The notes under the pieces were generated by a model. The model made no database searches. It had not been told where the DNA came from and saw only the letters and a list, made by a program, of their open reading frames with translations. A stretch of DNA of 26,231 nucleotides from a virus, in the IMG/VR virus record IMGVR_UViG_3300020198_000086, positions 1-26,231 of that record; one strand, written 5' to 3'. Positions within the stretch are counted from its first letter, which is position 1. The number at the start of each line of letters is the position of its first letter. Position numbers and translations under genes: made by a program. Below, piece after piece: positions 2,854 to 8,033 of this stretch.

Positions 2854-3336
2854 TTACTGTGCCCTCGATTGTGCAAATGCTTTTATTTTTTCATAATTAG
2901 CTGAAGATCCATTAATATTACGGATCATCTTAACTCTATTACTTGCATTTAGTTCTCTATAAAGAGAAACAATTTTTGCTGCTTCCTGTGGATTGACTTG
3001 TGTTTTTCCACCATTATCAAAAATTACATTACCACTAGATCCAGCATTAGCAATTTTTTTTAATTGATCAATAACTTTACCGCCACTTTCTTGAAGATCT
3101 TCTTCGTGCATCGCACATTTTTTACATTTTTTCTCTTCTCTTTTTTGTCTATTAGATAAAAGTTTTTTTACAAAAGATCTAACATCTTTTTTGCGACCAT
3201 CAATTCTTTTTTTAACTATTGGTTGGTCGGGTGGAAGACCAGCAATTGATTCACCAGCAACACTATTTGTTGGGGAGATACCACCTACCCCCCCAACAGA
3301 CATTTCCCACATTGAGTATAATTCTTTTTTATCCAT
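2854..3336 (-). CDS. Hypothetical protein with a basic, Cys-containing middle, 160 aa
   Basis: I do not recognise a family. The N-terminal third is Gly/Pro-rich (VGGVGGISPTNSVAG). A strongly basic stretch follows (about residues 41-73) that contains a Cys-x2-Cys pair (KKCKKCAM) followed by a Met-His, possibly half of a metal site or a redox pair. The C-terminal half looks helical (EAAKIVSLYRELNASNR). The ATG at 3336 overlaps the stop of the preceding gene as TAATG, and its own stop is one base before the next ATG, so the reading frame is well fixed by its neighbours. The basic stretch could bind nucleic acid, but that is a guess. Confidence 0.7.
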   Translation of the reverse strand: MDKKELYSMWEMSVGGVGGISPTNSVAGESIAGLPPDQPIVKKRIDGRKKDVRSFVKKLLSNRQKREEKKCKKCAMHEEDLQESGGKVIDQLKKIANAGSSGNVIFDNGGKTQVNPQEAAKIVSLYRELNASNRVKMIRNINGSSANYEKIKAFAQSRAQ

Positions 3337-3701
3337 TAGATTTTATTTAATTCTTCTAAACAATAAGTATCAAGTTGTATTTGTAGTAAAAATACATCTG
3401 GATCAATTCTATTCAAATACACTAGAAAAGATTTTAATGCTGACCAATACTGTGGTTCAAGTTTATAAAATAACAAAGGAATGCCAGCATCATCAAATAA
3501 ATTAAAAATAATGATAATATGATTTAGTAACAAATGTGTTTTGAGAAGTCCAGTTGAAAGATATTTTTTGAGTAATCTTTTGATATATTTAAATCTTTTT
3601 AGATCTTCAAAAAATTCATCTTTAGTGGAACAATGGGGGTTCTCATAATTTTTTATAGCAAATAATAAAAAATTATCTTCATTCAATTCATTAAATTTCA
3701 T
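3336..3701 (-). CDS. Hypothetical protein, 121 aa, conserved-looking cyanophage type
   Basis: A compact protein with an acidic N-terminus (MKFNELNEDNFLLFA), a basic helix (FKYIKRLLKKYL) and hydrophobic helices (LLLNHIIIIFNLFDDAGIPL). Similar small proteins occur beside structural genes in T4-like cyanophages as far as I recall, but no function is known to me. It starts 14 nt after the Ig-like virion gene, with no good Shine-Dalgarno in front, and overlaps the next gene by TAATG. It is therefore most likely the second gene of a late transcript started at the promoter at 4319-4326. There is no signal peptide; the hydrophobic stretch is interrupted by charged residues and is not a convincing membrane span. 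Confidence 0.72.
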   Translation of the reverse strand: MKFNELNEDNFLLFAIKNYENPHCSTKDEFFEDLKRFKYIKRLLKKYLSTGLLKTHLLLNHIIIIFNLFDDAGIPLLFYKLEPQYWSALKSFLVYLNRIDPDVFLLQIQLDTYCLEELNKI

Positions 3702-3715
3702 AATATATTAATTTA

Positions 3716-4291
3716 TCATGTGCCGAATGTGAGAGTAACTTCGTTAGAGATTACTTCAGTAGCACCAGCGGTTGAGTTGAGTTTGACACGATACTCATTA
3801 CCAGTAGCTGCGGCAGTCTGTCCAGCGAGAACAAGTGAAGCACTTGTAGCACCAGAGACATTCGAGAATCTACCACCAGACGTTGCTCTCTTCTGCCACT
3901 GGAAGGTAACAGACCCAACAGTAGCTGTAGCAGCAACAGTAAATGTAGCACCGCCAGAAGAAGTTGTCTGGTTAGTTGGTTGTGTAGTAATAGTAATTGT
4001 AGATGTTACATCTGCTGCGATAGTGTCATCAGCCTGAGTTTCATTAGCGTTGGTATCAGCGTTACAGAGAGTAACTAGTTTTTCTACCTTGTGACGTGTT
4101 TGTCCTTCGCAATCAGTATATGTAAAATATGACCACCATCCAGGACCGTCAATTCCTCGCTTTTTGTTTACAGCTAATTGTGCTTCTGTTTCATCAACAA
4201 AAACAATTTGTTTAGCTTGTGATGATGCTGCAATGCCACGGCCCGCCTTGGTAACGTTGGCATTACTATCTGTTCTTCCGTATAGAGACAT
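3716..4291 (-). CDS. Virion structural protein with C-terminal Ig-like domain
   Basis: The protein has 191 aa. The first about 85 residues form a phage-specific N-terminal module (MSLYGRTDSNANVTKAGRGI at the start, then a GPGWWSYFTYTD segment). Residues from about 95 to the end are a Thr/Ser/Ala-rich beta domain with the Ig pattern: SGGATFTVAATAT, a core Trp in FQWQKR, then TGNEYRVKLNST and a final strand EVTLTF. Ig-like domains on phage virions usually decorate the capsid or tail and may bind host-surface glycans. A perfect late promoter (TATAAATA) stands about 28 nt upstream of the ATG, which fits a virion protein. It is probably a decoration or tail-associated protein; the exact position in the particle cannot be read from sequence. 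Confidence 0.85.
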   Translation of the reverse strand: MSLYGRTDSNANVTKAGRGIAASSQAKQIVFVDETEAQLAVNKKRGIDGPGWWSYFTYTDCEGQTRHKVEKLVTLCNADTNANETQADDTIAADVTSTITITTQPTNQTTSSGGATFTVAATATVGSVTFQWQKRATSGGRFSNVSGATSASLVLAGQTAAATGNEYRVKLNSTAGATEVISNEVTLTFGT

Positions 4292-4581: not shown

Positions 4582-6756
4582 TTACGCTTTGACGCAGTTA
4601 TCAACTGTTTTACCACCTTTCTTTTTAGTCCCCGCTAACTTGTAACCTTTCCAACAAGACTTACCATCAAGTCCCTTTGCTTTTTCAATGATGATCACTT
4701 CACCATCTTCCATGACTACTTCATAAGTAGTACCCACTAATTCATCTGGCATCAGATCATCAGATTCAGTTTCTTCTTTATATCCTTTTGCTTTTGGTAC
4801 TCCTTTTGAAGGAACACAATTAGGAACTTCACGACCACCTTTCTTCTTCATACCAACTTGAGTATATCCTTTCCAGCATGGATCATCCTTCTCTTCTACA
4901 TATTCAACTTCTTCTGCTTGATTCTTGTTTTTTGCAATCATTTTGAAGTCGGTAAGTGACTTACCTTTTTTCTTCGGTCTGTCTACAGCGTTGACAATTT
5001 GATTACTAAAGTCTGGACCTTGTGTTGAAAGATCAACTTCATGAAGATTTCCTTCAATATGCATATCAGCGGATTGTTTCTTAGCAGTTGCTTTCTGTTG
5101 AACGGCAACCTTTTGCTTATTTAAGGCTAATTGTTTGTTTTGAATTTGCTGTTGTTGTGGTGACTGTTGTGATTGTGCAGGTTGAGTTGTTGGAGCAGGC
5201 TTTTTCTTTGCAACCATTTGAGGTTGCATTGGGACCTGTTCTTGCATCCCTTTAATTTTAGGATTAATCATTACTCCATCTTTTTTTTTACCAACAAGTT
5301 TAAGTTGATTCTCTGCTTCATTTATGAAATAATCAAAATCCTCATCAGAAATATTCTCAAAGATTTCTAGAACTTCATCTTCATTGAATGCAATTTCATT
5401 CTCAATAAAGTAATCTTTGAGCATATGGAACTGTTCTAGCATTTCCATATCAATCTCAAAGTCTTCCTTTACTTTCTTTCTGGGATCATTTGCTGCACCT
5501 CTTTCATAATCTGCTTTGGTATATGGTCTAAAGTCATCACGGCCGCCACCACCTTGTTTACCATAACGCTGTTGTCTTCTCTTAGCAGCTCTTTCTCTCA
5601 TTTTAGCAATAGAATCTGCTTCGTCAAGTTGTTCTGCTTCATAGATGTCAAGCATTTCATCCCAAGTATATTCAGAAAGATCGTATCCTTCATCTACAAG
5701 TTGATTTACCCAGTTCTCAAACTCTTCTCTACCAAGTTGCTTCTTCTCATTGGGAGTTAGAGCAGCAGAACCTCTCTGTGCTCCTCTTGCTGCTTGTTTT
5801 GCTTTTACCTTAGGATCATTTGATTGGTGTCCATAACCATGAAGTCCAGGGCTTGACGAAGTGGTATTACGGAAATCACCTCTTTGCTTTCTAGCATAGT
5901 TGGATCTTTGTTTTGATTTGTTAGCATCACCGTAAGTAGGTTTATTCTCAAGTGCAGTTGCTCTGTCTGCAGCTGCACCACCACCAGTTGACTTAGCAAT
6001 TTTGTTACGAATTGCAGTCTCATCATGACCACGTTTTGCCATTGCAGTTGCTTCGTCAATAGACTCTTTACGAGTTGTCATTGCTTTAGCAATTGCTGCG
6101 CGACGATTCTTTAGATACTTATCGTTCTTATCATTCTTTTTACCGTCATTATCAACGTCTGCATCTTCTTTACCAACTGGATCAAGTGCTTCAGTCTTTG
6201 ACTTCATCAAAGCACTCTTACCATACTTTGCAGTGATAGATGCTTTTACTGCATCTAATGCAGCTTGACTAGTTTTCTTGTGTTGTTCTGGATCATGCTT
6301 CTTTGCAGTTCCAGATGGTTTGGAAGGATATCTGTTGTTCCCATCAACACCGCCTCTTTCCATACGGCGATCTTTCAATCTATCCGACTCTTCTTCAGGG
6401 AGAAGTTCTACTTCTTCCTTTCTCATTTCTTTTTGTTGTTCGTTTCTCTTCGTTACTTTTTCCTTAACTTTTGCCTTAAGTTCAGGTTTTGAAGCAACAT
6501 TGTAGATAGCAAGTGTTGGAGCACTATATGACTTACCATCAAAGTGAACTTTTGTTCCCATGTAAGACATTGACTCTTCGCTGATTAAATCCATTGCATA
6601 CGCAAGAGATTCACCAGCAAGATGATTCCTGAGATAATTTTCTACAAGTTCCTCATCTCTATCGAACATCACAAGTGCTCTTTCTAAAAGGCCTTGGGCC
6701 TTCATGAGTTTACTTGGATCTACGTGAAGATAAGTAGCGAATTTAGATAGTTCCAT
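4582..6756 (-). CDS. Large charged protein with prohead-protease-like sites; likely virion-internal protein
   Basis: This 724-aa protein is highly charged, with low-complexity stretches (Gln-rich about 520-570, Gly-rich about 401-405). A calcium-loop-like DVDNDG motif (200-205) is followed by KKNDKNDKYLKNRR. Sites fitting the T4 gp21 protease rule (Ile/Leu/Ala-x-Glu before Ala/Gly/Ser) occur at AGE/S (49), IDE/A (235), IYE/A (373), LDE/A (379) and INE/A (480). Two C-terminal copies of a motif (CWKGY, then KKKGG, then NCV) give paired Cys. Similar proteins are found in cyanophage virions as far as I recall. The start overlaps the 3' end of the nucleotidyltransferase gene by 14 nt, so the two are probably co-expressed. 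An injected or scaffold-associated internal protein is the best inference; no enzyme domain is recognised. Confidence 0.75.
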   Translation of the reverse strand: MELSKFATYLHVDPSKLMKAQGLLERALVMFDRDEELVENYLRNHLAGESLAYAMDLISEESMSYMGTKVHFDGKSYSAPTLAIYNVASKPELKAKVKEKVTKRNEQQKEMRKEEVELLPEEESDRLKDRRMERGGVDGNNRYPSKPSGTAKKHDPEQHKKTSQAALDAVKASITAKYGKSALMKSKTEALDPVGKEDADVDNDGKKNDKNDKYLKNRRAAIAKAMTTRKESIDEATAMAKRGHDETAIRNKIAKSTGGGAAADRATALENKPTYGDANKSKQRSNYARKQRGDFRNTTSSSPGLHGYGHQSNDPKVKAKQAARGAQRGSAALTPNEKKQLGREEFENWVNQLVDEGYDLSEYTWDEMLDIYEAEQLDEADSIAKMRERAAKRRQQRYGKQGGGGRDDFRPYTKADYERGAANDPRKKVKEDFEIDMEMLEQFHMLKDYFIENEIAFNEDEVLEIFENISDEDFDYFINEAENQLKLVGKKKDGVMINPKIKGMQEQVPMQPQMVAKKKPAPTTQPAQSQQSPQQQQIQNKQLALNKQKVAVQQKATAKKQSADMHIEGNLHEVDLSTQGPDFSNQIVNAVDRPKKKGKSLTDFKMIAKNKNQAEEVEYVEEKDDPCWKGYTQVGMKKKGGREVPNCVPSKGVPKAKGYKEETESDDLMPDELVGTTYEVVMEDGEVIIIEKAKGLDGKSCWKGYKLAGTKKKGGKTVDNCVKA

Positions 6757-8002
6757 TCTTAGATTTCTGTTTACTACTATTTAGTGTTGTCGGATCTTTA
6801 TGTGCATATGAAACTACTGGTTGCCCAGGAGTTAAGTTTTGCAATGCAATACGATGTATATCTGTACCAACTTCCCAATGAACTTTCTCATTAATATTAT
6901 CTAACCATGTACGGAATGTTCTTCCTTCTTCATCTAGAATAATCACATAATTAGAGCCACGGAAAATGATATTACCAACAACTCCTGTACTTAGACTTTC
7001 AACTACATCCCCAACATTAAAGATACGTTCTTGAAAATATTCTTCACGCAATCCTTGTGGATCTAGTTTAGGAGCAATTTGATATAGTTCCTCTTCAAGA
7101 TTCATTGAACGACGAACCTGCATATAAATTGCTTTCGCGTCTGCAGATTTTACATCCTTCGGAAGTCCCTTTTTGAATGCATCATAATCATTATCTTGAG
7201 CTGCTTTTCTCATCTTAGATGCAGACATTCCTTCTACATCCTCTGAGTCAGGATCTCTTTCACCAGCACTTACAATATCAAGTTTGCCAAAGTTATATGT
7301 TTTTCCATTATATTTACCAGTGATGCTTGTGAATTCTTTTACACGGTCATCACCAACAACAATTTTAACTTTGTCGTATCCTTGTGCATGTAAACCCTTT
7401 AAAACATCAAAAATGTTTCTGCCACCTGAAGGATCATTAACAATATTTCCAGCATGATGTGGGAACATTGTTTGCATCACATTTGTTTTAGTCTGAAAGT
7501 CCAGAGGATTCTTTTTAGGATCCTGTGATTGACTTGGATAGATCATATAATCTGAACCATCCTTATAAGCCTCATCAGCAACTCGATCAATTAATTTAAG
7601 ATGACCAGCATGAGGAGGATTAAATCTACCAAATGTAATTACAACAGATCCTCCACCTTCATTACGAGGAACCATAGGTTCTTCTTCTGAAGTCTTTTTA
7701 TCTTTAGGTTGTTCTTTTTGAGGTTCTTGTTGAACTTGTTGTGCAGGCATCTGGCCAGCAGCAGGCGTTTGTCCTGCTTGTTGTTGTGATATTGGAGGAG
7801 TTGTTAGGGGTTCACCAGATGTCAAACGTTTTTTTTCTTCTGGACTTAGTGGAACAAGACGGGTGCCACCTTCAGCTTTGGCAACAATGTTACCCTTTGT
7901 ATCCGCGTAATATCCCTTTCCTGTATGTACTAATCCTTTCTTCTCCGCTTCTAATCCTGCCTTAGTTCTAGATTCATTCAAAAAGTCGTTAAAAGATTTC
8001 AT
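6743..8002 (-). CDS. HxGH nucleotidyltransferase (cytidylyltransferase/NMN adenylyltransferase-like) with capsid-targeting-like N-terminus
   Basis: The 419-aa protein contains a HIGH-superfamily nucleotidyltransferase core at about 119-300: GRFNPPHAGH (125-134) is the nucleotide-binding motif, and SASKMR (260-265) matches the ISSTxxR-type second motif. Family members join a nucleotide to a phospho-compound, making for example CDP-alcohols, NAD or CoA precursors; the substrate cannot be told here. The first 11 residues, MKSFNDFLNES, match the T4 internal-protein targeting peptide (MKTYQEFIAE before Ala) and the gp21 cleavage rule, suggesting packaging inside the capsid. Residues 12-118 include a Gln/Pro-rich linker. 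Residues about 327-372 (IFNVGDVVESLSTGVVG) look like a small SH3/KOW-type beta domain. A late promoter is present just upstream. Confidence 0.85.
   Translation of the reverse strand: MKSFNDFLNESRTKAGLEAEKKGLVHTGKGYYADTKGNIVAKAEGGTRLVPLSPEEKKRLTSGEPLTTPPISQQQAGQTPAAGQMPAQQVQQEPQKEQPKDKKTSEEEPMVPRNEGGGSVVITFGRFNPPHAGHLKLIDRVADEAYKDGSDYMIYPSQSQDPKKNPLDFQTKTNVMQTMFPHHAGNIVNDPSGGRNIFDVLKGLHAQGYDKVKIVVGDDRVKEFTSITGKYNGKTYNFGKLDIVSAGERDPDSEDVEGMSASKMRKAAQDNDYDAFKKGLPKDVKSADAKAIYMQVRRSMNLEEELYQIAPKLDPQGLREEYFQERIFNVGDVVESLSTGVVGNIIFRGSNYVIILDEEGRTFRTWLDNINEKVHWEVGTDIHRIALQNLTPGQPVVSYAHKDPTTLNSSKQKSKNGTI
6778..6785 (-). promoter_or_regulatory. Possible weak late promoter (ACTAAATA)
   Basis: On the minus strand the octamer matches TATAAATA at 6 of 8 positions and continues with GTAGTA, like the element before the 8002 gene. 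It is 22 nt upstream of the ATG at 6756, inside the 3' end of the preceding gene. It may boost the 724-aa gene separately, but the match is weak. Confidence 0.3.
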
Positions 8003-8025: not shown

Positions 8026-8033
8026 TATTTATT
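8026..8033 (-). promoter_or_regulatory. Late promoter, AATAAATA (7 of 8)
   Basis: On the minus strand this reads AATAAATA followed by GTATATAG, 24-31 nt upstream of the ATG at 8002. It overlaps the last bases and stop codon of the ligase-like gene, so late transcription of the nucleotidyltransferase and 724-aa genes can start without passing through the ligase-like gene. Confidence 0.6.

Follow-up and report, generated by a model that had tools for sequence, protein, structure and literature searches.

The gene and its surroundings

The window, by which we mean the whole stretch of DNA analyzed (26,231 nucleotides), is a 26-kb fragment of an IMG/VR virus record that ends where the window ends. 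It encodes UvsX, gp41 helicase, gp43 polymerase, primase, MazG and Hsp20 together with head-associated PHROGs, and judged by this gene content its source is a T4-like virus related to the cyanophages. No gp21 or capsid genes lie within the 26-kb fragment. One minus-strand ORF, with its ATG at 8002 and its stop codon at 6743-6745, encodes a 419-residue nucleotidyltransferase (hereafter the enzyme). Matches to head PHROGs (window 2854-4291) lie near its gene. The features of the locus are:

4582..6756, minus strand: low-complexity protein of 724 aa with CWKGY...GGK.V.NC repeats, related to S-SZBM1_139 by synteny and a common motif only
6743..8002, minus strand: HxGH-type nucleotidyltransferase of 419 aa (phrog_395 cytidyltransferase, NMNAT-like; Pfam CTP_transf_like 7.6e-07, phrog_395 2.8e-95)
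6878..7051, minus strand: C-terminal beta-rich domain, residues 318-375, conserved (strands within 333-372, pLDDT about 84-91)
7103..7651, minus strand: nucleotidyltransferase core, residues 118-300, with HAGH at 131-134 and MSASKMR at 259-265 (invariant motif residues; Foldseek)
7652..7819, minus strand: low-complexity Q/P/K-rich linker, residues 62-117 (least conserved, at 1.61 bits per position; pLDDT below 50 at residues 69-93)
7820..7969, minus strand: second N-terminal module, residues 12-61, a small alpha/beta domain (AF2 pLDDT about 90-96; homologous stretches elsewhere)
7973..8002, minus strand: putative capsid-targeting leader MKSFNDFLNE, residues 1-10, with a predicted prohead-protease cut at Glu10/Ser11 (T4 IPII/IPIII match at 2, 4, 7, 8 and 10)
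8026..8033, minus strand: octamer AATAAATA, resembling a T4-type late promoter and located 31 nt upstream of the enzyme start codon
8029..9225, minus strand: DUF6267 protein, encoded by a conserved neighboring gene; ligase-type motifs KxDG and EGxV...KLVxR, no leader in the window copy

Homologues of the enzyme are held by 557 phage records, mostly of Synechococcus and Prochlorococcus phages and at identities below 60%; the best cultured relatives share 41-45% identity with the window enzyme. The order of genes around the ORF is the same in Syn9 (gp182-gp192) and S-SZBM1 (S-SZBM1_139-148). The low-complexity protein at 4582-6756 contains two CWKGY...KKKGG...NC repeats, a motif also present in the virion-detected S-SZBM1_139.

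The octamer upstream of the enzyme is an element which we take to be a T4-type late promoter (T4 consensus TATAAATA). Of 68 NMNAT homologues, 32 have the motif NATAAATA in the 80 nt preceding the gene, as against 1.5% of background 80-nt windows; it is missing mostly where the enzyme gene directly abuts DUF6267. Late expression, as the element predicts, would fit co-assembly with the prohead, which requires late synthesis.

An N-terminal leader resembling that of T4 IPII and IPIII

The sequence-only reading had likened the first 11 residues of the enzyme, MKSFNDFLNES, to the T4 IPIII targeting peptide followed by a gp21 cleavage site. This identification holds: the letters are confirmed, and residues 4, 7, 8 and 10 fit. 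In the T4 genome IPIII and IPII both begin MKTYQEFIAEA, which aligns with the enzyme over 11 residues without a gap, giving four identities (M1, K2, F7 and E10) and mostly conservative changes elsewhere. According to a review of T4 head work, IPIII packaging needs the first 10 residues only, mutagenesis assigns residues 4 and 7 to targeting and residues 8 and 10 to processing, and gp21 cleaves after L/I-x-E (PMC9026906). The window enzyme has aromatic residues at positions 4 and 7 (F4, F7) as well as L8 and E10, and its residues 8-10 (LNE, followed by a small residue, Ser) form the gp21 cleavage motif, although as a motif only. The T4-derived pattern is found at the N-terminus of just one of the 26 window ORFs, the enzyme, and in the S-CREM2 proteome it occurs at 3 of 219 N-termini compared with none of 50,056 internal windows; the match is thus better than chance.

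The leader is widely retained. Among 85 homologues fetched through catalytic-core patterns, 73 carry the strict leader and the remaining 12 are mostly leader variants or truncated contigs. Once leaders shorter by one residue are realigned, position 10 is nearly always Glu and position 11 nearly always Ala or Ser, with Ala the commonest P1' residue and Ser, as in the window enzyme, in a minority. In alignment A4, which was partly chosen by leader pattern and for which the unselected core-fetched set of 85 is the fairer sample, conservation within the leader peaks at positions 2, 4, 7, 10 and 11, and the leader is better conserved than the catalytic core. A proper leader is absent from the enzyme of HTVC008M and of the L007-L009 lineage.

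A full leader-like sequence, MKTFKEFIKE, also begins T4 gp61.1 (54 aa; NC_000866, 18966-19130; L216), which adjoins primase gene 61; the window enzyme lies on that side of its replication cluster too.

A second N-terminal module

The leader is followed by a module of about 45 residues that has no Pfam match. Homologues of it occur in the S-CREM2 kinase (twice), the S-CREM2 Cas9-like protein, S-CRM01 g128 and the S-CRM01 kinase. It is also found in an ADP-ribosyltransferase at L185 (Pfam 1.3e-16) and, at L424, in a protein that Pfam matches weakly as HNH-like. The enzyme core accompanies the module in 207 of 231 carriers, and among the 24 without it are several truncated copies of the enzyme. 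We propose that the module may serve packaging or delivery. At L185:9941-10774 the ADP-ribosyltransferase domain protein carries the module at its N-terminus. The S-CREM2 virion protein gp12 (L092:7704-10313), annotated as Cas9, lacks any Pfam match, contains the second module and has a leader lying internally, at residues 17-27, so that its Cas9 annotation merits checking.

Orthologues in virions and the predictive value of the leader

Orthologues of the enzyme have been detected in the purified virions of several cyanophages: in S-SM1 as T4-GC190, a core protein and putative citidylyltransferase (PMC3037559), in S-SCSM1 as ORF91 (PMC9602691), in S-SZBM1 as S-SZBM1_140 (PMC9146016 Table 1) and in S-CREM2 as ORF154 (PMC10665884 Table 3). 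These proteins begin MKKFSAFLNEA, MKSFLQFLKEA, MRFRQFIIEA and MKNFSSFLTEA, respectively. Detection amounts to 2-3 peptides in some phages, and in S-SZBM1 the emPAI of the enzyme is 0.26 as against 27.64 for the capsid protein (PMC9146016). The authors of the S-SCSM1 and S-CREM2 studies flagged carry-over through CsCl as possible, and both papers already propose an effect on NAD (PMC9602691, PMC10665884). No cut N-terminus at the leader is reported in the virion proteomics, and among the openly licensed literature we found no paper naming the leader in cyanophages, a T4 review being the single one to mention both. Virion presence and the NAD idea are hence already in print, and it is the targeting leader that appears to be new.

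S-CREM2 allows the leader to be compared with virion content across a whole proteome, with all 219 annotated CDS set against 52 MS-detected proteins. All three matches to the T4-derived pattern (the SAM lyase ORF6, the kinase ORF14 and the enzyme) are virion-detected non-structural proteins (p=0.013, or 0.0022 among non-structural CDS). Allowing L or I at positions 4 and 7 adds ORF13, for 4/4 detected (p=0.0029), and the widest pattern, picked after the data were seen, tolerates an offset start too and brings in ORF12 (Cas9-like) and ORF136, for 6/6 detected (p=1.4e-4). Taken by itself, the cleavage motif is no predictor of virion proteins (1 of 4 in S-CREM2), and prediction calls for the complete leader. 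In S-SZBM1 the link is less strong, with the strict-leader proteins _191 and _192 not in the MS list and the detected enzyme bearing the variant leader MRFRQFIIEA. In S-CRM01 five consecutive genes (g127-g131; L217), the kinase and the enzyme among them, have leader-like starts and may form a cargo operon; PMC10665884 cites the S-CRM01 kinase as virion-detected.

The leader on unrelated proteins of environmental phages

Scanning IMG/VR with an exact nucleotide pattern that encodes MK.F..F(hydrophobic).EA gave at least 125 matches in at least 120 loci. Among the matches listed, 120 of 125 stand at the start of an ORF that is 60 aa or longer and has an in-frame stop no more than 40 codons upstream; grouped on the sequence beyond residue 11, these comprise 39 unrelated cargo groups. 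A permuted control pattern with the F at position 5 instead of 4 gave 120 matches; the real pattern is present in 108 of them as well, and the other 12 are control-only, two of these being leader variants. The overlap between the two scans gives a rough estimate of about a thousand real matches in the stretch that yielded the 12 control-only ones. Among the leader-bearing cargo, Pfam supports DUF6267, glucosaminidase, DPBB, GNAT and DUF192, among others. A gp21-type protease (PF03420, peptidase S77) is present in 14 of the 17 leader-bearing contigs above 50 kb and in no control-pattern contig, although only two of these exceed 50 kb.

These observations suggest, with somewhat better than even probability, that the T4-type leader, often joined to the folded module of about 45 residues, acts as a portable two-part packaging address in environmental T4-like phages. 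Its cargo would, with similar assurance, span a nucleotidyltransferase, a kinase, a SAM lyase, an HNH nuclease, an ADP-ribosyltransferase, a glucosaminidase, an acetyltransferase and dozens of unknowns. The link between the leader, virion detection and many unrelated phage proteins goes beyond the literature searched. If the address reading is true, scanning for the address would yield candidate injected proteins of uncultured phages, turning a T4 curiosity into a prediction rule for the injected proteins, mostly without known function, of an abundant group. It would also bear on the virion enzymes of cyanophages, for which several groups have been unable to separate cargo from contamination: a leader with a conserved cut site would explain entry, and makes the cargo question testable in existing spectra.

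The DUF6267 neighbor

The KxDG, EGxV and KLVxR-type motifs are invariant in DUF6267 (alignments A2 and A5), as in ligase and capping enzymes. Foldseek gave no significant match for the protein (T4 DNA ligase, an RNA ligase and LigA appear at E about 4), so the ligase idea is one of motifs alone, and a profile search against solved structures returned chance matches only. A leader-like N-terminus is present in 63 of 75 DUF6267 homologues of a scan, the cyanophage type being without one, and the leaders of DUF6267 and the enzyme are largely complementary across loci, in a sampling that is partly biased. Packaging of leaderless DUF6267 by piggybacking on the leader of its neighbor was considered and is not claimed, because DUF6267 is absent from the MS lists of both S-SZBM1 (_141) and S-CREM2 (gp87). 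No ORF fusing DUF6267 to the enzyme was found in the loci.

The enzyme core and its possible substrate

The core of the enzyme contains both the HxGH and the (I/M)S(S/A)(T/S)xxR motifs, as HAGH and MSASKMR, with TxGH replacing the former in many homologues, and these active-site motifs are kept with little or no variation across 42 diverse homologues. The C-terminal domain may be SH3/KOW-like. Foldseek searches with the AF2 model place NadD/NMNAT first by E-value (1.2e-05, against 2.2e-04 for PPAT/CoaD). The curated NadD and NadR models both score below cut-off (TIGR00482, 21 of 112.45 bits; TIGR01526, 15.6 of 341.15 bits), and a sequence search of solved structures with the enzyme profile gave no match. 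As the window is a fragment, relatives were examined for NadV/NAPRTase, which was found in none of seven Kyanoviridae and not in T4; according to a survey, NadV is always found alongside NadM in phages (PMC9503650).

The earlier suggestion was that the enzyme possibly restores a nucleotide cofactor such as NAD. The NadD/NMNAT fold and intact motifs favor it, whereas the unmet NadD and NadR cut-offs, the lack of NadV in the seven relatives and the PPAT fold match leave it plausible and unproven, and we assign NAD chemistry to the enzyme tentatively, at just short of an even chance. That a packaged and injected enzyme instead adenylylates something other than NMN or NaMN, for example a phosphopantetheine-like compound, a sugar phosphate or an acceptor common with a ligase-like DUF6267 partner, is a serious possibility, if a less than even one. 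PPAT is as close in fold (target-normalised TM 0.68 versus about 0.6 for NadD/NMNAT), the failure of the NadD and NadR models and the want of NadV point the same way, DUF6267 is the usual neighbor, and phrog_455 spans both domains; against this stand the top Foldseek E-values and the published NMNAT annotation, for which no assay was found in the literature searched.

A probable head-packaged and injected enzyme

The earlier interpretation is partly borne out. Its claim that the enzyme is packaged is well supported by a conserved leader specific to protein starts, a gp21-type protease in relatives and orthologues in virions, with the caveat that the last may reflect carry-over. On this basis the enzyme is very probably packaged through its leader. 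Cleavage of the leader by the protease is likely, given the conserved site, and injection is probable by analogy with T4 IPI-III. What the sequences show is the leader, the conservation of its functional positions and its link to the protease in relatives, and others have detected orthologues in virions; location in the head, like the substrate, is something we infer.

Might the leader package the enzyme for a role in assembly, or as a passenger that does nothing useful after injection? T4 internal proteins do enter as parts of the core, the enzyme gene lies beside head-associated genes, and the S-SZBM1 emPAI suggests a low copy number, but we consider this unlikely in view of the near-invariant active-site motifs and of the other cargo of leader and module, which are enzymes too (SAM lyase, kinase, ADP-ribosyltransferase, glucosaminidase). 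Least probable of all is that this is an ordinary cytoplasmic metabolic enzyme carried over into virion preparations, as the few peptides and the proteome authors' own caution might suggest, with an N-terminal likeness serving another role: the leader is specific to protein starts, is common to 39 unrelated groups among the matches listed, and goes together both with detection in S-CREM2 virions and with a gp21-type protease.

The best overall explanation, which we consider likely, is a head-packaged internal enzyme that is targeted by its leader, cut, injected and, most plausibly, NAD-sustaining. The enzyme would be made late, and its first 10 residues would bind it into the growing prohead core, as the leader of T4 IPII/IPIII does. 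The gp21-type protease of the phage would then cut after Glu10, leaving a low-copy enzyme in the mature head to pass into the cell along with the DNA. Inside the cell it would work as an adenylyltransferase before phage gene expression, most plausibly on NMN or NaMN, so that NAD is sustained or restored.

Comparison with known systems

Phage NadM and NadR NMN adenylyltransferases belong to the same HxGH nucleotidyltransferase superfamily as the window enzyme, but the latter has no Nudix or kinase domain, does not satisfy the NadR and NadD models and has relatives without NadV. Also close are the cyanophage virion NMNAT/cytidylyltransferases (T4-GC190, ORF91, S-SZBM1_140 and ORF154), whose core is orthologous and, in S-SZBM1 as in Syn9, whose gene neighborhood is the same; within the literature searched, earlier work on these proteins did not tie packaging to a leader. 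T4 Alt, a head-packaged ADP-ribosyltransferase, offers the precedent of a head-carried enzyme acting at once after injection, although the type of enzyme differs. A parallel for targeting is provided by T4 IPII and IPIII, with which the window enzyme shares a 10-residue leader, MK.(F/Y)..F(I/L).E then A/S, matching at the functional positions, a late-promoter-like element (in the window gene) and a gp21-type protease (in relatives). IPII and IPIII differ in being small and abundant and in inhibiting type IV restriction enzymes; the window protein, at 419 aa, is an enzyme that has a linker and a second module as well, and its apparent copy number is low.
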